A stretch of 21,328 nt of DNA, from IMG/VR virus record IMGVR_UViG_3300050821_024006, positions 1 to 21,328 of that record, one strand, 5' to 3'. Both the position numbers and the translations under genes were made by a program. Shown here piece after piece: positions 1,844-10,687 of the stretch (positions within the stretch are counted from its first letter, which is position 1; the number at the start of each line of letters is the position of its first letter). This DNA comes from a virus. Below the pieces are notes generated by a model that saw nothing but the letters and a program-made list of their open reading frames with translations, made no database searches and was not told the origin of the DNA.

Positions 1844-2284
1844 TCATGGACTTTCGATGAAATAGGCTTCGCAACCGTTCGTCGCCGCGCAGATGCAATC
1901 CCATTCCGACTGCAAAGCAGGGACGGTCGTGTTCGTCGGCGCGGTGTATGCGAAGCAGTTAGCGCCGGGAAAGACTACCCAGCCCGCACCAGCCGCTGTA
2001 GGCGCTGTCGTGCCGCCTGTTCCCGCTGCTCCGCACGTCTGTCCGGTAGTGGTTATCGTCACCGGACCAGGTGCGCAGAACATCAGATTGGTGCCGATAG
2101 TGTTCGCGGTCTGCGAGCCTTGGTTGCAGATCATAAACGAACTGCGCTGCCCGCATTCCGCTACCTTCACAGCCGCCGTGCTGACGGCAACGGGAGCCAT
2201 CGTTGTGCCGTTGGGGTTGATGTTAAATCCAAAGGCAACGGCTGGCAGCAGGGCAACAAACAAGCCTACGAGATACTTTTTCAT
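1844..2284 (-). CDS. Sec-exported, cysteine-rich virion-like protein
   Basis: 146 residues. The start ATG 2284 overlaps the previous stop (ATGA) and has SD GAGGGGG 6 nt upstream. Residues 1-19 form a classical Sec signal peptide: MKK, a hydrophobic core (YLVGLFVALLPAVAF), and probable cleavage after AFG. The mature part has eight cysteines, an even number that would suit disulfides in an oxidising compartment. The body (SSFMICNQGSQTANTIGTNL, then an Ala/Thr-rich middle, PGANCFAYTAP and a C-terminal YFIESP) resembles small beta-rich phage proteins with an 'R..l.I.N.gs...iG' strand pattern, though that likeness is from memory. A signal peptide on a gene between scaffold and capsid is unexpected. 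It may act in the periplasm or at the cell surface, for example in receptor masking, superinfection exclusion or assembly. Function unknown. Confidence 0.8.
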   Translation of the reverse strand: MKKYLVGLFVALLPAVAFGFNINPNGTTMAPVAVSTAAVKVAECGQRSSFMICNQGSQTANTIGTNLMFCAPGPVTITTTGQTCGAAGTGGTTAPTAAGAGWVVFPGANCFAYTAPTNTTVPALQSEWDCICAATNGCEAYFIESP

Positions 2285-2711: not shown

Positions 2712-3755
2712 TTATGCTCCTATGTCGAGTGACGCCACTCGTTTGTTAAAAGCCTTGTCCTTGGTCTTTTCCAGAAAGTCATCTTCCGGCATGTCAGCGA
2801 TATAGACGGCGAACTCCTGATTACTCATCGTCTGCCACTGACCCTGCACCGGAGTCTCCGCGCTCTGCGTGCGACCTAGTCCCTGCACCTTCTGTCCGTT
2901 GGCGATCTGGTCAATCTTGGCGTTCCCGTTCGGCTGCTGTCTCACGCCCGCGTTAGCCGGTGGCTTGAATCCCCATTGAGTCGCCATGTTGATGACGGCA
3001 TCAGCCAGCGGAACGCCTGCCTGAGCCGCCGACGTGACCAGCGCCATCTCTTCATTCGCAACGATGGATGCCGCCTGCTGCTCGCTGTGTCCGACGCTCT
3101 GCCAGAACTTGCGGCGCGCGTCGCGGGCGAAGTCCACGGCGGTATCGTAGTAGGCGTATTTCTGACGGCCCAAGTTAGCCTGCCCCTGTACCCAGTTGCC
3201 GAGTTGCTGTTGTTGGAATGCAGTCTGGAACTCCCGCGAGCGCCCATTGACAAATTGCTGGAGTTGTCCGACCTGTTGTTCGAGAGCGAGCGCCTTCTGT
3301 TCCGCGTCCCATGCACGCGCTCCAGCAGCGTCAACATCGGGGTCGGGACGCATCTTGGCGATTTCAGCTTGACGCGACGCATACTCCGCCCTTTTCTGAG
3401 CTTCGTCCGCCAAGTCCTGCTTCGCCTTGATGTTGGCGAACATGAGTCGCGTCTGTTCGGCTTCGTTGCGATACTTTTCAAGTTCTTGGCGGGTGTTGTT
3501 GCGCTCCTCTACGACTTCCTGAAAACGGTCGTAGGGAATGGTCGTCGGCTTCTTGCCCTTTCCCTTTCCACCTTCGGCGGTTTCGGGAGTCTCTATGGCG
3601 GCAACTTGCTCAGTCTCTTCGCCTTCGGGAGCGGGCGCGACGGCAGTTCCCGCTTCCTCGGCGGCAGCAGCAGCCTTTTCCTCTTCGGATAGGGCGTCTC
3701 CCGTATCTTCCAGCATCGGGTCAAAATTTGGTGCGGCAGCTTTAGCTTTCGGCAT
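2712..3755 (-). CDS. Capsid scaffolding-like protein
   Basis: 347 residues from ATG 3755, chosen because GGAGAG lies 8 nt upstream. A GTG at 3764 is also in frame but overlaps that SD. The gene overlaps the end of the ATP-grasp gene by 14 bases. The protein has an acidic Ala/Glu/Pro-rich N-terminal third (with SEEEKAAAAAEEA), then a Lys/Gly linker (GGKGKGKKP), then a long helical coiled-coil section (EVVEERNNTRQELEKYRNEA through LEQQVGQLQQFV). The C-terminal region contains IADMPEDDFLEKTKDKAFNK. This layout and its place upstream of the capsid gene match phage scaffolding proteins, which template procapsid assembly and leave before packaging. No protease domain is visible. The assignment rests on architecture and context. 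Confidence 0.8.
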   Translation of the reverse strand: MPKAKAAAPNFDPMLEDTGDALSEEEKAAAAAEEAGTAVAPAPEGEETEQVAAIETPETAEGGKGKGKKPTTIPYDRFQEVVEERNNTRQELEKYRNEAEQTRLMFANIKAKQDLADEAQKRAEYASRQAEIAKMRPDPDVDAAGARAWDAEQKALALEQQVGQLQQFVNGRSREFQTAFQQQQLGNWVQGQANLGRQKYAYYDTAVDFARDARRKFWQSVGHSEQQAASIVANEEMALVTSAAQAGVPLADAVINMATQWGFKPPANAGVRQQPNGNAKIDQIANGQKVQGLGRTQSAETPVQGQWQTMSNQEFAVYIADMPEDDFLEKTKDKAFNKRVASLDIGA

Positions 3756-5028
3756 GTTCTTCACTCTCCATAAAATTAGACCAGCGTATTCCTAGTTCCT
3801 CTCCTTCATGCACAGTCTCAAGCGCCTTCGTCAGCGCCCCTGAATCGTAAGTTATCCCCGTTCCCTTGATGGACTTCGCCACTTCCTGAGCCTCAGCAAT
3901 CGCCTCTTCCATCGTATCGCCCAAGCCAATCGCCCCGCCCATCTCGGCAATCTCGTTCATGCTCACCGCCCAATCCACGCCGTCGATATTGCAGTGCCCG
4001 TGAATCGCGGTCCTGTCGGGCCTGTCTATCTGCACGGCGATGGGCCGTTCCTCGAATGTCGATGAGCGTAGCACGATCTGCGCTCCATAACGTGCAGCGA
4101 ACTCAGGCTCTACCACCTCTCCGTTCGCGTAGCCCCAAAGCATCTCACCCAAGTTGGTAATCATCTTGCTCTGAAGCTCCGAAGGAGGGCTGCCAAACCG
4201 GCACGTTGCATCGATGAAATAAGTGCCCTCAGTGTTCTCCCGCGTCTCGGTCGAAAAGGCACCACGGTAGTTGAAGGCTTGCAAGGCGGGACGGAGTTTT
4301 TGTTGAGTACTACGCATCCGAGGGGATAGATAGGCTGTGCTACCAACGAAGGCGCTGTCTTTGACTTCGTAGCCAAAGAGACCAGCGTTAGGGAACTGGC
4401 CTTCGGCGCAGAATGTGTCGAATCCAATTTCGACACAAGGCCCGTCATCGTCTGCAATGGGCGTTTCGACGACAAATTCAGCAAGCGACCCATACGGCCC
4501 CAGTTTCATCTCGATCTCGTTCAGAATGTCTCTCGATAGCACTTCCCCCTGATGCTCGAATGTCTCTCCATCGCCCCGAAACCACGACAGTTTGACCCAT
4601 AGACTGCTGCTGGACCGCAACATCTCCCTCAGTGCCGCTACTCCATGTATCCCCACTCCAGCAGCAGTCTGTATGTCCAACTGTGCGCATACGTTCTTCA
4701 GGAAGGCTCGATCCCTTTCGAGTCTGTCTGCATCACCGGACCCAAACACAGGCATTCCCTGTCGCCGCAAGTAAGTCTGAAGCCCTGAGTAGCCGACATC
4801 TGGAAATACCACGAGGTCGGCTCGGTCGATGTGGTCGAAGAAATCGTCAATCCGCTCGATTCCGGCAAGTCCAATTCCAGGTAGCAAGTCTCGCGCACGT
4901 CGGAAGCTCGCATCGGATGGTGTCCAATATAAAACCTCGGCATAGTCATCCACCACGGCTTCTGCGAGCATGGTATAGTCGCCCCCAAGATCGCAGAACA
5001 TCACCGTCTTTCGCGACAAATCCGTCAT
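3742..5028 (-). CDS. ATP-grasp-like carboxylate-amine ligase (PurD-like)
   Basis: 428 residues. ATG 5028 overlaps the glycosyltransferase stop (ATGA), so the two genes are coupled. Residues 1-95 look like a pre-ATP-grasp Rossmann-like domain (TVMFCDLGGDYT, with ADLVVFPDVGYSG further on). The next part has the order expected of ATP-grasp enzymes: GSGDADRLERDRAFLKNV at about 97-113, a nucleotide-binding-type lysine in WVKLSW (about 146) followed by a Gly-rich loop FRGDGETF, FVVETPI at about 185-191, and YFIDATCRFG at about 270-279 in the place of the metal-binding 'ExNpRfG'. There the usual acidic and Asn positions read Asp-Ala-Thr-Cys-Arg. The C-terminal GLGDTMEEAIAEAQEV resembles the PurD C-domain. 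Such enzymes join a carboxylate to an amine with ATP. The substrate is unknown, and the altered metal motif raises the possibility of a specialised or weakened activity. Confidence 0.72.
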   Translation of the reverse strand: MTDLSRKTVMFCDLGGDYTMLAEAVVDDYAEVLYWTPSDASFRRARDLLPGIGLAGIERIDDFFDHIDRADLVVFPDVGYSGLQTYLRRQGMPVFGSGDADRLERDRAFLKNVCAQLDIQTAAGVGIHGVAALREMLRSSSSLWVKLSWFRGDGETFEHQGEVLSRDILNEIEMKLGPYGSLAEFVVETPIADDDGPCVEIGFDTFCAEGQFPNAGLFGYEVKDSAFVGSTAYLSPRMRSTQQKLRPALQAFNYRGAFSTETRENTEGTYFIDATCRFGSPPSELQSKMITNLGEMLWGYANGEVVEPEFAARYGAQIVLRSSTFEERPIAVQIDRPDRTAIHGHCNIDGVDWAVSMNEIAEMGGAIGLGDTMEEAIAEAQEVAKSIKGTGITYDSGALTKALETVHEGEELGIRWSNFMESEEHAES

Positions 5029-5798
5029 GCGTCATGGACCACCGCGCCGTTAGTATGTTCAGCAGGACCGACGATACAACCCCTATCAAACTTGTACTTT
5101 TTGTATTGTTCTGGATGCTCCTCAGCCAGCCATAGCTCGTAACTCAGCGCCACTTTCTTGACGTGCCCAACTTGGATGCCTGCGTGCCCCCAAATCGAGA
5201 ATCCAGCCTTCTTGGCGCGGCGGCAGAAGGTCAAGTCCTCTCCGAGATGGTGAATCTTCTGGTCGTCGGTGTTGAACGCCTCGTCGTGCCCGAACCACGT
5301 CCACTCGTCCCCGCCGTGAACCTTGAGAAGTCCCTCGAACACGGACCTGTGCATGATGCAGAAGCCCATGCCGATGGCGTCCACCGCTTGCGGCTGTCCG
5401 GGGTCTGGCTCGATGCGATTCACCGTCCGATATTTGCCCTTGTCAGTCTCCATGAACCAGACAGGGCAGAGATGGCCCTGAGCGAGCCGCGAGAAGTAGA
5501 TACCCGACACGATGGGCCGCGTCACGGGGTCCGCTATCTCGTAGAGCGCATAGACCATCTCAGGGCGGAAGTCGATGTCGCAATCGAGGGATACCAGCCA
5601 ATCATCTTTGGTCTGGAGGAACTGCTTGACCATGTTGTTGCGGTTCTCGGCTACATAGAGACCGCGCACGGGGATTTCGTTCTGAACGAGGCCGTTGTGG
5701 AGACGGTCGAAGATTTGCAAATCGCGCTTGGAGTCGATGAACTCCTGCTCTTGATTGCCGTAGCAGTAGCCGATGCTGACGGTGCCCTGATTCTTCAT
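5025..5798 (-). CDS. Glycosyltransferase, GT-A fold (family 2-like)
   Basis: 257 residues from ATG 5798, which overlaps the previous stop (ATGA). An upstream in-frame extension to 5882 would overlap the preceding gene by 88 bases and reads as non-conserved Arg-rich sequence. GT-A hallmarks are the N-terminal strand TVSIGYCYGN, the donor and metal site DDWLVSLDCDIDF (D72, D74, D76), an acceptor-side AIGMGFCIMHRSVFE (about 141-155), and GEDLTFCRRAKKAGF (about 186-200), where the ED pair is the usual catalytic-base position. No membrane segment is present, so it is likely cytosolic. It is followed without a gap by an ATP-grasp gene. Candidate targets are virion proteins, DNA bases or host surface sugars; its place among head genes makes a virion target attractive but unproven. 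Confidence 0.85.
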   Translation of the reverse strand: MKNQGTVSIGYCYGNQEQEFIDSKRDLQIFDRLHNGLVQNEIPVRGLYVAENRNNMVKQFLQTKDDWLVSLDCDIDFRPEMVYALYEIADPVTRPIVSGIYFSRLAQGHLCPVWFMETDKGKYRTVNRIEPDPGQPQAVDAIGMGFCIMHRSVFEGLLKVHGGDEWTWFGHDEAFNTDDQKIHHLGEDLTFCRRAKKAGFSIWGHAGIQVGHVKKVALSYELWLAEEHPEQYKKYKFDRGCIVGPAEHTNGAVVHDA

Positions 5799-6298
5799 GC
5801 GATGACCGGATGCGGCTCCGCGCTGGTAGCTGCGGTCCAGTGGCACGTCGGGCACTCGTTGAGAATGCCGACCGGCGCGCACTTCGACACGCTAGGCTTC
5901 GGGGCGGGCGGCAGCGGCTTGGGCGGTCCCGCGCTGATCGCCTGCTTCGGGATGACGAGTTGCGTCGGATGCGGCTCGATCCCCTTCGCCAAATCACCAA
6001 ACGTCCAGCCGCAACCCTCGACCTGGCAAACTTGCCCGGGCGATGCCGTCACAGGCGGATGCGCCGCGATGTCTCTCGGCAAACCCTTCGCCACGAGTTC
6101 GTTATCATGCGCTGCGATAGCCTTGAGATTGGCCGCTGCGTCCGTGTTTGCCTTGTCGATGGCTGCTTTCTTTGCTTCGTCATCGACACGCTGCTTCTCG
6201 GCGGCTTCGGCTTCCAGTTTCGCCGTTGCGACCTTCTCTGCGGCGTCAGCCTTGGCCTTTTCCGCGCTCACTTCTGCTGGAGTGGGTGTCTCTGCCAT
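5795..6298 (-). CDS. Coiled-coil protein with two Cys-Cys-His metal-binding-like motifs
   Basis: 167 residues from ATG 6298, with GAGG 8 nt upstream. A TTG at 6304 is in frame but too close to that SD. Residues 1-70 are an Ala/Lys/Glu heptad-like helix (EKAKADAAEKVATAKLEAEA). The C-terminal half carries two related motifs: C91-x4-C96-x-W-T ending EPHP, and C149-x2-C152-x-W-T ending EPHP, separated by a Pro-rich linker. Each could hold one metal ion, or together they could make one zinc site. The start lies within a few bases of the previous stop and the end overlaps the glycosyltransferase start. I recognise no family. A minor virion or adaptor protein is possible. Confidence 0.75.
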   Translation of the reverse strand: MAETPTPAEVSAEKAKADAAEKVATAKLEAEAAEKQRVDDEAKKAAIDKANTDAAANLKAIAAHDNELVAKGLPRDIAAHPPVTASPGQVCQVEGCGWTFGDLAKGIEPHPTQLVIPKQAISAGPPKPLPPAPKPSVSKCAPVGILNECPTCHWTAATSAEPHPVIA

Positions 6299-6300
6299 GT

Positions 6301-6768
6301 TCAAATCCTCACTAAGTCAATGCGTTGATTCGCGTCTTTGTTGCTGGTCAGCCATGTAAGCGCCATGCCACCTTTCACAGACCCTTCCATCACCTTTTGG
6401 TCGGGGTGATTGATGAGAGGCCCGAATAAATCTCCGAGCAAATCTCGCGCTTCTGAGTAATCTTCCTGCGTCCAGTCGTCCACGCACACAATGCCTTCCT
6501 TCGGCACCTCGAATATCGGCACACCGTCAGCACCGTACACCAATTCGTCGCCTATCGTCTTGATGAGACACACCGACCCCTGCCACATCGGAGGTTTCAT
6601 GTAGGCGGCAAGGAATAGCCGCAGAGACCACGGGCCTAGCCGGACACCGAAGTCGTCCAAGATGGTCATGGGAATTTCCGTGCATGGATTGCACCGCGCG
6701 ATGTCGCGCTGGCGCTTGCACGTCTCCTTCCACTTGGCGATCTCTTCGCGATTAAGATTTTGACTCAC
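6301..6768 (-). CDS. Conserved-looking hypothetical protein
   Basis: 155 residues. The start is GTG 6768, overlapping the previous stop as GTGA. The sequence is globular and mixed: an N-terminal helix with two cysteines (KWKETCKRQRDIARCNPC), then ILDDFGVRLGPWSLRLFLAAY, and a C-terminal DLLGDLFGPLINHP. No signal peptide, membrane segment or known catalytic motif is seen. It lies within a run of four small genes between the portal and the glycosyltransferase. Position suggests a minor head or packaging-related protein, but no function can be assigned. Confidence 0.72.
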   Translation of the reverse strand: MSQNLNREEIAKWKETCKRQRDIARCNPCTEIPMTILDDFGVRLGPWSLRLFLAAYMKPPMWQGSVCLIKTIGDELVYGADGVPIFEVPKEGIVCVDDWTQEDYSEARDLLGDLFGPLINHPDQKVMEGSVKGGMALTWLTSNKDANQRIDLVRI

Positions 6769-7166
6769 TCGTCTTCTCGCGGTGCGAAGGGATTAACGAT
6801 GCCGCGTTGCTCACGTCCCGCGCGCTGCTGCCGCATCTCCGACAGCTTCTCGAATAGGACGTAGCTGCATTCCTCGCAGGTATCTTCTAGTTTCAGATCG
6901 CACGTCCAGATTTTGCGCTTACACTCCACGCATTCTGTTTTCCCGACGATAATGTGGCTCTGGACAGCGCCATGCTTGGCGGCTTTCAGTACCCAGTAGG
7001 GCAGGCGTTCCAGCGCAAAGCCAGTGAAGTCGAAATTAGGATCTATCGACGGCGCGTGAATCGGCTTGTTGAGCTTGGGAGCCTCAGTCTTTACCGTCGA
7101 AGGCAACGGCTTGTTGAACCGCTCCATCACCGGCAAGCTGCTCCGCGCTTTGCGTCCTTTCGGCAT
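6765..7166 (-). CDS. Small protein with zinc-ribbon-like cysteines
   Basis: 133 residues from ATG 7166, with AGAGGGG about 10 nt upstream. The N-terminal 40 residues are basic and Pro-rich (MPKGRKARSSLPV), probably disordered. The middle has a C79-x2-C82 pair, C89, and a C97-x2-C100 pair (TECVECKRKIWTC and DTCEECS), a layout typical of a four-cysteine zinc ribbon. The tail is charged. The gene overlaps the upstream gene by 83 bases and the downstream one by 4. Zinc ribbons often bind nucleic acid or mediate protein contacts. The role here is unknown. Confidence 0.75.
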   Translation of the reverse strand: MPKGRKARSSLPVMERFNKPLPSTVKTEAPKLNKPIHAPSIDPNFDFTGFALERLPYWVLKAAKHGAVQSHIIVGKTECVECKRKIWTCDLKLEDTCEECSYVLFEKLSEMRQQRAGREQRGIVNPFAPREDE

Positions 7167-7425
7167 TTAGCAAATACCCCTCTGCGAACAGGTATCCTTC
7201 GGCTGGTGTGAGGATGCCTTTCTTGACGAGTTGCGCTCCGTAGGTGGGCGCGTCAACACGATCATCGAGTCCGAATCGCTCAACCAGATCGCCAAGAATT
7301 GAGTACGTAGCGCGTGTACCAACCTTGCCCAAGAAGCCTCGGTTGAAGCAATGTAGGATGAGGACTTGATCACTGGATAGCCTCAGCTTCGTCGCTATCG
7401 TCGCCAAGCACGTTAGCAGTTCCAT
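7084..7425 (-). CDS. Hypothetical protein overlapping both neighbours
   Basis: 113 residues. ATG 7425 has a good SD (AAGGGAG, with spacer CGCCAA after GGGAG). The gene overlaps the upstream zinc-finger gene by 56 bases and the downstream zinc-ribbon gene by 83 bases, so only about 60 percent of it is non-overlapping. The protein is mainly helical (MELLTCLATIATKLRLSSDQ) with a possible winged-helix-like stretch (TYSILGDLVERFGLDDRV followed by GAQLVKKGILTP). I assign no function. The good SD, and the 203-base gap that would otherwise lie between its neighbours, argue for a real gene. Confidence 0.65.
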   Translation of the reverse strand: MELLTCLATIATKLRLSSDQVLILHCFNRGFLGKVGTRATYSILGDLVERFGLDDRVDAPTYGAQLVKKGILTPAEGYLFAEGYLLNAERTQSAEQLAGDGAVQQAVAFDGKD

Positions 7426-7948
7426 TTGGCGCTCCCTTGAGCGGGTCTATCGGTTGTCGAGATGCGCGGGCGTCGGCGTCGTTGGGATGAATGACCATCT
7501 TCGGGCCTGCGGGCTTCGGCTTTGCCACAGATGGGTTGATAGGCTTGGGTGCCAGCATCTGTTGCGCCAGCGTTTGCCCCGCACGGTCCTGAACGGCTCC
7601 ACCGACTTCGTACTGTCCATGCGTCTCGCAGAGCCAGCCGTTTTTCGTCTCGTTCAGAATGACGCCCTCGCGTCCGCAATAGGTGCAGGGATTCTTGACG
7701 GCTACTGCAACGGGTGACGCTTGAGTCACTTGGACCGCCTCACGCCCGCGTGAGACCTTGAAACCCTCTGCCTTGAGCAAGCCGATCAGTTCTTCCAGTT
7801 GCTCCCCGACGTATTCCAACGCTGCCGCCTTGCGCGCTTCCAACGCAGCGAGTTTCACGTTCTCGTTAGCACGGGCGCGGATGCGCGACTTAACCGACTT
7901 GCGCCGCTTGCGGACCACGGCGAGTTTAGGTCTGGTTTCCGATTCCAT
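7370..7948 (-). CDS. Basic coiled-coil protein with one Cys3-His zinc finger
   Basis: 192 residues from ATG 7948, preferred over ATG 7966 because GGGAG lies 6 nt upstream of 7948 while the longer form has no SD. It overlaps the portal gene by 23 bases. The N-terminus is strongly basic (KLAVVRKRRKSVKSRIRARA), followed by an Ala/Glu/Leu helix (ALEYVGEQLEELIGLLKAEG). A zinc finger of the form C88-x2-C91 ... C107-x2-H110 follows (NPCTYCGREGV and GWLCETHGQ). The last 70 residues are Pro/Ala-rich and acidic at the end, probably disordered. A DNA-binding or portal-associated minor protein is possible. No specific family is recognised. Confidence 0.75.
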   Translation of the reverse strand: MESETRPKLAVVRKRRKSVKSRIRARANENVKLAALEARKAAALEYVGEQLEELIGLLKAEGFKVSRGREAVQVTQASPVAVAVKNPCTYCGREGVILNETKNGWLCETHGQYEVGGAVQDRAGQTLAQQMLAPKPINPSVAKPKPAGPKMVIHPNDADARASRQPIDPLKGAPNGTANVLGDDSDEAEAIQ

Positions 7949-10043
7949 TCGGCGCTCCCGTTCCATTCATTTGTACTTTCGCGGCGGCGATGCGGTCGTG
8001 TAGTAACTTCTGATGCTCAAGACTCTTTTTATGCGCCAACTCGGAGGACCGCAATAGGGTATCGCTCGTTAGCTGCGCCAATTCCAGATTCGACTTCCTG
8101 TCTATGGCCTTCGCTTCCGCAATACTGCGCTGCGTATCGGCACCGAGTTTCTGAATCTTCGCTTGCGTCATTTGCGGGTCTTCGGTTTTACCTCCACCTT
8201 TCCCCTTTGGAGGTGGTGGCGGAGTGTTCTGAGCCAATTCCTGAAACTCCGCAACGAGTTGCGTCGGCCACGGTGAAAATTTGAGGGCTTTAACCAAGAA
8301 CGCTTGCCCGAATGGCGATTTGATAAACTGCGGTGCTATTTGTAGTACTTCCTGCCAAATCTGCGATTTGAGGTTTGGGTTATGCTTGACGCTATCGTCC
8401 AGAATCATATCGTACTGGTCTTGTGCGGGCAGTTCGGATTTGAACAGCGGAATCGCTTTCGAGTTAAAGTCGCCGCCCACACGCACCAGTTGCCCATAGG
8501 ACCAGTACTCGCGCACGAACTCCAGCACCGTTCTGAATTGCTGCTTGCGGAAGCGGGAGATATTGTCCCAGAACCAACCGAGAATCATCAATCCGCCCTG
8601 CACGCGGCCCTGAATCGACGGCCCCGTTGCGTCGCCTGTCGATATACCGAGCATGTCGTCACTGACGCCAGAGATGCGCGACATCGAAGTCTTCGCTTCC
8701 TGAAAAAGCATCGGCGGCACTTGCGAGATGTTCTGCGGCTGTCGCGGCAGGATATCGGTGGCAAGATTCGCATCCGAGTTCGCTTCGATCCAGCCGTCCA
8801 CGCGCGCCCATTGGTCCTTTGCCATGTTCACGTCGGCAAAGGTGCCCGTCTTGAAGATGACGCCGCCCTTCGCGTTGGTGATGTACTGAGCTACCAACGA
8901 TGAGATGGCCTTGTTCATCGTGTTCTGCGGGTCTTTCAGTGACCGCACGATGCCGTACCAGGTTTTTTTCACTTCGTCGTACTGGCCGGTGATACAGAGA
9001 AGAGACCAGCCCGCAGGCAGCACCACCTCATCTTCCAGAATGACGCCGAGCGAGCAGTAGCACTGCTTGTACACCGGCTTGAGTTGCCGCACGGCTTTCG
9101 GCATCGGCTGTCCAGCCAAATCGTTCTTGACCTTGAGCGCATCCCACTGTTCTTCGGTCAGTGTCTGCAACTTCTGCGGGTCTTGCGGGTCTGCGATGCG
9201 CCAGATCGGAATCATGTCGCGATACTGGAACTGAATTACTGGAATTGAGTTAGCGCGTTCGGTGCGCTGCCCTACTTGCGGATTAGCCTGCTCGTTCGCG
9301 CGGGAGTAGTACGGCGTCACCTCTTCGTAGCGGTTTACGTCCTGCTCCTCGTAGTAGATGATCGCACCGTCCACCTTGTCGATCATTCCCGGAAATCGCT
9401 TCTTGAAGTCAGGACGCGAGAAGTCCCGTTTGCGATACCGGAACTTGGCGTCTTCGATGTTGTCCTGAATCGCCTTCGTGTCCCAGCCCATCTCCTTGTT
9501 CGGGAGCCTGCGCACGACCACGCGACCGTCAGGATCGTCATCGTAACTGGTCAGCACTTCTACCCAACCCATTCCGGTGACGGCGCAGTCCTTGATGGCG
9601 CGGGAATCTTCCAACTCGCCGTCGCACATATCGAGCACGCAGCCCACGGTCTCCGAGGCCAAGTCACCTGCGGCATCGTGAAGCATATCGGAATCCACGG
9701 CGCGGGAGACGGCGTGAACGTCCTGCCGGTTGAGGCGTTCCAATCCTGAGATGGCATCTATCTTGTCGCCAATTTCGTTAAAGACGAGTGCGGGACGGCG
9801 CAACTGCTCCATCCGCATCTTGTCGAGGTCGGGCCACTGATGTCCGTGGTAGTAGCGCGAATCTTCCATCGCGCAGTTGTTGAACGTGGTGACGCCGGTG
9901 GCAGAAGCGCCAACGTCGCGCATGACACGCTCGCCCAGTTTTTGCTTCTCAGGATCGTCGTTTACTGCAAAGGAAAAGGCCAGCGATGACGATGCTGTAT
10001 CCTGACCCTGATCCGTCAGGGATTTAAGGAGATTTTCGGCAAT
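7926..10043 (-). CDS. Portal protein, P22-like
   Basis: The portal is the dodecameric ring at the head vertex through which DNA is packaged and ejected. The frame is open from a TGA at 10062-10064. The first ATG is at 9923 (665 residues), but the only good SD (AGGAGAG, 10050-10056) points to an ATT at 10043, giving 705 residues, near the P22 portal length. No SD precedes ATG 9923, so I prefer the longer form; a reader wanting an ATG should use 9923. Numbering from ATG 9923, residues 17-29 (NCAMEDSRYYHGH, then QWPD) and RRPALVFNEIGDKIDAISGL match the P22-like portal N-terminus. SGVSDDMLGISTGDATGPSI lies in the core. The last 110 residues are a Pro-rich linker and long helices, as in barrel-bearing portals. 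Confidence 0.9.
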   Translation of the reverse strand: MAENLLKSLTDQGQDTASSSLAFSFAVNDDPEKQKLGERVMRDVGASATGVTTFNNCAMEDSRYYHGHQWPDLDKMRMEQLRRPALVFNEIGDKIDAISGLERLNRQDVHAVSRAVDSDMLHDAAGDLASETVGCVLDMCDGELEDSRAIKDCAVTGMGWVEVLTSYDDDPDGRVVVRRLPNKEMGWDTKAIQDNIEDAKFRYRKRDFSRPDFKKRFPGMIDKVDGAIIYYEEQDVNRYEEVTPYYSRANEQANPQVGQRTERANSIPVIQFQYRDMIPIWRIADPQDPQKLQTLTEEQWDALKVKNDLAGQPMPKAVRQLKPVYKQCYCSLGVILEDEVVLPAGWSLLCITGQYDEVKKTWYGIVRSLKDPQNTMNKAISSLVAQYITNAKGGVIFKTGTFADVNMAKDQWARVDGWIEANSDANLATDILPRQPQNISQVPPMLFQEAKTSMSRISGVSDDMLGISTGDATGPSIQGRVQGGLMILGWFWDNISRFRKQQFRTVLEFVREYWSYGQLVRVGGDFNSKAIPLFKSELPAQDQYDMILDDSVKHNPNLKSQIWQEVLQIAPQFIKSPFGQAFLVKALKFSPWPTQLVAEFQELAQNTPPPPPKGKGGGKTEDPQMTQAKIQKLGADTQRSIAEAKAIDRKSNLELAQLTSDTLLRSSELAHKKSLEHQKLLHDRIAAAKVQMNGTGAPNGIGNQT

Positions 10044-10049
10044 GACGAT

Positions 10050-10056
10050 CTCTCCT
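10050..10056 (-). promoter_or_regulatory. Ribosome binding site implying a non-ATG portal start
   Basis: AGGAGAG on the minus strand overlaps the stop codon of the exported-protein gene. The core GGAG lies 8 nt before an in-frame ATT at 10043. No ATG, GTG or TTG in the portal frame lies within reach. The TTG in the next frame (10042) hits a stop after eight codons. So this SD either drives initiation at ATT or marks a sequence difference that removed a normal start. Confidence 0.55.
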
Positions 10057-10687
10057 AGAGGTCACATTCCATGATGCAATGCGGCACAATCGCGGTCGGC
10101 GTACCAGTCGGAGTCCATCCGTAGTCGAGTAAGTCACCCACGGCAGTGACGAACGTATGCGTCGTATCATGACAATTGGTCTGCGCCGCCGTCTCGGTAC
10201 AAGTCAGGGCTGTAGCCACCGTGTTGTCATCCACGGCGATGGCCCAACTCGTTCCGCCTGCGGCTGTCAACGTGCCCGCGATGTTGGTCGTTGAACAGTA
10301 AAGGTTCTTGCAGGTCATCACGTTGCTGACTTCCTGCATGGCGTCGCCTTCGGTGGCCGCAACCAGCGTGGCAATCGAGTTGCCGCTGATCGGCGTGAAC
10401 GCTTCCGCAGCTACCTGTGAGAATACAGCGGTGGTGCCGCCAGTGAAGAATACGCGCATCGATCCGGGCGCTACCGGCATCGACACGAAGTTGCTGCCGT
10501 TCCAGACGTACATCGTCTGAGTCGTGCTATCGAGACAAAATGCCTTGCCGGTGACGGGCGGCGCGGTCTGCGGCGTATAGGTCGAGCAGCCAGACTCGCT
10601 GAAAAACCAGTTGTTGAACGTAAAGGCGTGCGCATTGGCGGACAGCGCCAGCAACAGCCCCACCATGAGCGTTACAATTTTCTTCAT
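10055..10687 (-). CDS. Sec-exported, cysteine-rich protein preceding the portal
   Basis: 210 residues. ATG 10687 overlaps the stop of the 978-residue protein (ATGA). The N-terminus is a textbook Sec signal peptide: MKK, core IVTLMVGLLLALSAN, and cleavage likely after AHA at about residue 21. The mature protein starts FTFNNWFFSESGC and contains eight cysteines, including a C-x4-C pair (TCKNLYC) and a C-terminal C-x3-C (HCIMEC). It is otherwise Thr/Ala/Val-rich and beta-like, with a C-terminal VGDLLDYGWTPTGTPTA stretch reminiscent of phage surface or fibre-like proteins. Even cysteine count and signal peptide suit export and disulfide bonding. Its function is unknown; an extracellular, periplasmic or late-added virion role is possible. 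Confidence 0.82.
   Translation of the reverse strand: MKKIVTLMVGLLLALSANAHAFTFNNWFFSESGCSTYTPQTAPPVTGKAFCLDSTTQTMYVWNGSNFVSMPVAPGSMRVFFTGGTTAVFSQVAAEAFTPISGNSIATLVAATEGDAMQEVSNVMTCKNLYCSTTNIAGTLTAAGGTSWAIAVDDNTVATALTCTETAAQTNCHDTTHTFVTAVGDLLDYGWTPTGTPTAIVPHCIMECDL

Follow-up and report, generated by a model that had tools for sequence, protein, structure and literature searches.

Introduction

PurD, or GAR synthetase (TIGR00877; PDB 2yw2, 2xcl and 1gso), is an ATP-grasp enzyme whose full-length fold, domain order and C-terminal domain recur in the phage ligase described here, along with its ATP-grasp lysine and the arginine of its ExNxR motif. Phage-borne members are also found in the R2K clade of ATP-grasp enzymes (CDC123, R2K.2 and R2K.3), which are predicted protein modifiers (PMC4431377, PMC7824862). 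Phage glycosyltransferases of the GT2/PF00535 type are gathered in the families phrog_34859 and phrog_1574. Glycans on virion subunits have a precedent in mycobacteriophages, where capsid and tail-tube subunits are reported to carry them (Freeman et al. 2023, as cited in PMC10568470 and PMC12619734); those phages are unrelated to the one studied here, and the available parts of these two accounts mention no ATP-grasp ligase. A search of open-licence papers returned no description of a PurD-like ATP-grasp enzyme in phage head modules.

We analysed an uncultivated tailed phage represented by the whole 21,328-base IMG/VR virus record IMGVR_UViG_3300050821_024006 (hereafter the window), whose structural genes lie on the minus strand. 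Its ligase differs from PurD in scoring below the TIGR00877 cut-off, in lacking the substrate motifs, in having DxT/S/C in place of ExN, in carrying an extra invariant glutamate (E261) and in its phage structural-gene context. Like R2K enzymes, it is a phage-carried ATP-grasp ligase for which protein modification can be predicted and in which a polar residue replaces the Asn of ExN, as known for that clade; unlike them, it is PurD-like over its full length, is encoded among virion genes and, in all 13 family members, matches no R2K Pfam model. The neighbouring glycosyltransferase (GT) belongs to phrog_34859/phrog_1574 and is ordinary except for its place beside the ligase.

Results

All window features given below are on the minus strand. 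The head module contains a P22-like portal protein (7926-9923; PF16510, P22_portal, 1.3e-64) and a major capsid protein (MCP; 559-1707; PF13252, Phage_capsid_3, 2e-53), and the window also encodes a terminase large subunit (phrog_38, 8e-36). Between portal and MCP lies a presumed scaffold gene (2712-3755, ATG at 3753-3755), so named from its position and composition; it matches no Pfam or PHROG family, and its homologues adjoin the ligase in eight phages. The sequence-only reading had placed a GT and an ATP-grasp enzyme inside this module, and the arrangement is as it described. The GT gene (5025-5798, 257 aa) and the ligase gene (3742-5028, 428 aa) share an ATGA stop/start overlap at 5025-5028, and the 3' end of the ligase gene overlaps the scaffold start by 14 bases (3742-3755). 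In most relatives, the ligase-scaffold junction is an overlap of at most 41 bases or a gap of at most about 80 bases. Gene position suggests late expression of both enzymes; promoter and terminator scans gave no more sites than shuffled sequences. The closest head relatives in GenBank phages are Rhizobium phage RHph_Y1_10, Microcystis phage Mae-JY35, Paracoccus phage KLEP18-1 and an uncultured podovirus from Manatee Spring, and both the ligase and a window-type GT are absent from the whole records of these four.

The resemblance to PurD proposed earlier is real and distant. The window ligase alone matched no Pfam or PHROG model and scored 31.6 bits against TIGR00877 (purD), 256 bits short of the curated cut-off of 288 bits. 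Homologues were reached through a capsid alignment into IMG/VR, initially five and then 13, which align over their full length at identities down to 29%. PHROG models matched none of the 13, and Pfam gave only GARS_A (one member, 0.0013) and DUF6281 (one member). Compared with the PDB, the 13-sequence profile retrieved GAR synthetase at 4e-13. An AlphaFold2 model of the ligase reached a pLDDT of 89.5 and a pTM of 0.90, replacing an earlier five-sequence model that was discarded (pLDDT 47). Its best Foldseek matches in the PDB were GAR synthetases (E 1e-20 to 1e-21, TM 0.64-0.72), followed by biotin carboxylases and PurT, and the model thus has the ATP-grasp fold. The best viral structure match in BFVD had a TM of only 0.48 on the query; BFVD therefore holds no close viral structure of the full-length ligase fold. 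The ligases form a phage family not catalogued before, with no Pfam or PHROG family describing its members, and the earlier remark had been that no described system obviously matched the pair.

The ATP site, judged from the alignment, appears intact. When aligned with E. coli PurD, R/K107 falls on the SK lysine, K146 (4591-4593) on the ATP-binding lysine of VIKAD, E188 and E200 in the hinge region, and D273-x-T275-x-R277 on E-x-N-x-R. K146 is invariant in the 13 members and in E. coli PurD; E188, E200, E261 and R277 are likewise invariant in all 13, and R/K107 and D/E273 are kept down to 29% identity. E261 (4246-4248), in an S-x-E motif, is acidic where the PurD residue is not, and presumably falls at the third metal acid of D-Ala-D-Ala ligase; this comparison leads us to predict it as a second metal ligand. 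The catalytic lysine, metal acids and arginine expected of the ATP-grasp superfamily are thus present in every member as K146, E261, D/E273 and R277.

The putative metal/phosphate motif DATCRFG (D273-A-T-C-R277, 4198-4212) had been singled out as a departure from ExNxRxG. It is indeed present in the window, and its oddity disappears on alignment. Position 273 is D in 12 of the 13 members and E in one, position 275 is T, S or C, and R277 is universal; because D-x-[TSC]-x-R is shared across the family, DATCRFG is a family rule and not a peculiarity of the window. Replacement of the Asn of ExN by other polar residues has already been recorded in ATP-grasp enzymes (PMC4431377). On the substrate side, the PurD motifs GREH, GPEAPL, KADGLAAGKGV, DHKR, NTGGMGA and GDPE are missing, though the core aligns; GPEAPL, NTGGMGA and GDPE, which E. 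coli PurD has, occur in none of the aligned ligases. From these sequence comparisons, the ATP half of the enzyme looks functional and the substrate half changed, with carboxylate-amine ligation as the putative chemistry.

The ligase occupies a fixed position in the head clade. In all eight such phages (the window, L007, L008, L009, L011, L088, L089 and L093), portal and scaffold flank it, with the scaffold gene next downstream; L007 has a short overlapping open frame in between, and the near-identical L091 represents L011 a second time. L007, L008, L009 and L011 were found by capsid search, and L088, L089 and L093 by the ligase itself, so the unbiased presence in close MCP relatives is four of four; L010, whose contig ends before the ligase region, is outside this count. 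Of 49 records searched over their full length, 11 carry the ligase, and more distant capsid relatives lack it; most of the records are fragments. Relatives with MCP identities of 59% or less are without it (e.g. L012, 59%, 58 kb), and the ligase is therefore not needed for P22-like head assembly generally. Single-sequence searches of GenBank phages and viral contigs found no close relatives, and the GenBank phage collection searched held no carrier. GTDB contig scans for a bacterial member, made with weak queries of one or two short peptide patterns, found none.

Inheritance of the ligase parallels that of the portal. The supported portal-tree pairs window/L007, L008/L009 and L088/L089 recur in the ligase tree, with a deeper node unresolved, and ligase and portal distances correlate at 0.84. 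Between the window and L007, dN/dS is about 0.11 for the ligase (dN 0.164, dS 1.51), 0.14 for the portal (0.19/1.33), 0.21 for the GT (0.23/1.08) and 0.24 for the scaffold (0.36/1.49). The ligase is under purifying selection, with a constraint like that of the portal in this comparison. Vertical inheritance as part of the head module therefore seems a better description of the gene than recent passenger.

The L011 ligase gene carries an HNH homing endonuclease insertion at its start (6309-6893), and the ligase N-terminus occurs twice. In L093 (12826-18720) and L010 (1-5074), the head module is rearranged, with fibre-like and other late genes separating scaffold from capsid.

Distant family members have other surroundings. 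The ligases of L095 (phrog_6, 2e-60; phrog_177, 2e-48) and, alike, L096 sit in Mu-type baseplate modules, that of L097 lies between terminase and a P22-like portal, and that of L098 is in a late region without assignment. A 974-aa protein upstream of the L098 ligase seemed portal-like by eye and matched no portal family. The L099 ligase lies on a 172 kb contig, within a glycan island (GT11-like, polysaccharide deacetylase, FkbM and GT25 genes), which favours a carbohydrate link for this member. An IS605-type TnpB gene (OrfB, with a Cas12f1-like TNB domain; 8704-9888) lies directly upstream of the L099 ligase.

The GT assignment made from its DCDID and GEDLTFC motifs holds (phrog_34859, 4e-30; phrog_1574, 3e-19). 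Both aspartates of D72-C-D74 (5577-5585) and, in G186-E187-D188 (5235-5243), both E187 and D188 are invariant in seven homologues, so that DxD, ED motif and family match all identify a GT2-type GT-A enzyme. PF00535 is matched by the homologues in L011 and L012, and the window GT itself falls below its cut-off. A single-sequence search of viral contigs returned no close relatives of the GT, and at least 561 candidate IMG/VR stretches encode relatives of it. Among the best 80 of these loci, a single one has the ligase in the flanks that were fetched, whereas a related capsid gene is present in 11.

The sequence-only reading treated the two enzymes as a pair and proposed stable adjacency in relatives as its check. 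The pairing was not supported. The GT adjoins the ligase only in the window and L007; it follows the MCP gene in L011, L091 and L088 and was not found in L089, L093 or the fragments L008 and L009. Both genes occur in four of the eight head-clade phages (the window, L007, L011 and L088), and, within the flanks fetched, the ligase is missing from 79 of the 80 GT loci. Separate occurrence, which that reading had named as counting against it, thus applies to the GT, while the ligase stays beside the scaffold throughout the head clade. L012, which has no ligase, encodes a GT1-methyltransferase fusion, a related GT-A and a GHMP kinase in the interval from scaffold to capsid (6279-9781). The variety of sugar genes in the head clade and L012 indicates that such genes enter the head module repeatedly. 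The GT is best read as a mobile, independently acquired accessory, belonging to a large phage family that frequently occurs in structural-gene regions, rather than the fixed partner of the ligase, and it probably glycosylates a virion protein or a surface polymer.

Upstream of the GT, a small Cys-rich protein (5795-6304) ends in a C-x6-9-C-x2-C-x-W..PHP tail and is a possible partner or substrate of the ligase. One or two such modules form its C-terminus, and the tail is kept in L007, L008, L009, L011 and L088 (PHS in L088). The protein was found in none of the remaining head relatives and is likewise missing from L089 and L093, two ligase carriers whose lack of it weakens the case for an obligatory substrate. 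The genes directly upstream of the ligase elsewhere include one for a collagen-like Gly-X-Y protein in L008 (6468-6854; PF01391, 1e-8) and, in the baseplate modules, a conserved protein 41% identical between L095 (4887-5327) and L096 (330-743). The latter had no match in Pfam, PHROG or the PDB, and an AdoMet decarboxylase-like reading of it was thus unsupported.

Discussion

We give roughly even chances to the reading that best fits these results: the ligase is an active PurD-fold carboxylate-amine ligase with a substrate other than that of PurD, acting on a late phage product, likeliest a virion or head-assembly protein, and the GT is an independent accessory. Such an enzyme would bind ATP and metal through K146, R107, E188, E261, D273 and R277, would use ATP to turn a carboxylate into an acyl-phosphate and would then join an amine to it, following general ATP-grasp chemistry. 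A late phage product is the likely target because the ligase is co-inherited with portal, scaffold and capsid, immediately precedes the scaffold gene, shows portal-like constraint and turns up again near virion genes of unrelated phages. Virion-protein modification is plausible, with a surface polymer or host target as the rival. A more specific proposal is that in this podovirus clade virion morphogenesis includes a fixed step in which the phage-specific PurD-fold family makes a covalent amide modification (an amino-acid tag or a cross-link) on a head or assembly protein, and that elsewhere it modifies the baseplate proteins of other phages; we put this forward tentatively, as possible and rather less than probable.

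The main rival is a host target, such as a surface polymer, receptor or metabolite, which the ligase would modify late in infection, the late operon being only its carrier; amidation of a uronic-acid polymer to block superinfection would be an example. Surface polymers are the targets of known TupA-type ATP-grasp enzymes, one family member resides in the L099 glycan island, and several ligase carriers have a GT of the window GT's family. Late phage genes are also where host-acting morons accumulate, and for this reason position alone cannot fix the target. We nevertheless regard a host target as unlikely, if a serious contender, given the fixed position and portal-like constraint of the ligase over divergent phages and the 59 kb ligase carrier L089, which has no Glycos_transf_2 match. 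A single two-step pathway of GT and ligase building a moiety on a virion protein, as proposed from the sequence alone, draws on the ATGA coupling in the window, the adjacency in L007 and the co-occurrence in half of the head clade when L011 and L088 are counted; it appears improbable, since adjacency is gone in every other relative, L089 and L093 have the ligase without the GT, and only one of the best 80 GT loci has the ligase.

A PurD relative that has lost catalysis and persists as a structural or assembly factor would agree with the T, S or C at the ExN asparagine in all members and with the lost substrate motifs, but the five invariant residues and the retention of R/K107 and D/E273 speak for activity, and the asparagine substitution has its precedent (PMC4431377); there is perhaps a slim chance that it is right. 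Fold and distant homology to GAR synthetase, and surveys that have called phage genes purD (PMC11097641), could suggest an auxiliary metabolic gene raising host purine synthesis, but the sub-threshold TIGR00877 score and the absence of PurD substrate-side motifs from all members make this very improbable. Hypermodification of phage DNA, with the GT acting on a hydroxymethyl base, seems the most far-fetched: phage GTs do this elsewhere, and the L012 GT weakly matches phrog_842 (0.005), but 12 records, including contigs of 62 kb and 59 kb, held no thymidylate-synthase-type hydroxymethylase; a TET/JBP search was also run, in which no control gave a match.

Should virion proteins prove to be its target, the ligase would represent a new kind of post-translational step in phage head assembly. 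If they are not, the family is still an uncatalogued one, which annotation pipelines could mistake for purD and so report false auxiliary metabolic genes. The conservation of its place beside the scaffold makes the question of its target testable by mass spectrometry in one isolated relative.

Sec-type signal peptides (MKKYLVGLFVALLPAVAFG.., MKKIVTLMVGLLLALSANAHA..), which are unusual for virion proteins, were noted by eye at the start of several genes in late, structural regions, two of them in the window (1844-2284 and 10055-10687, minus strand). Similar signals were seen by eye in the late regions of L088, L010, L093 and L007, including long fibre-like proteins of these relatives.
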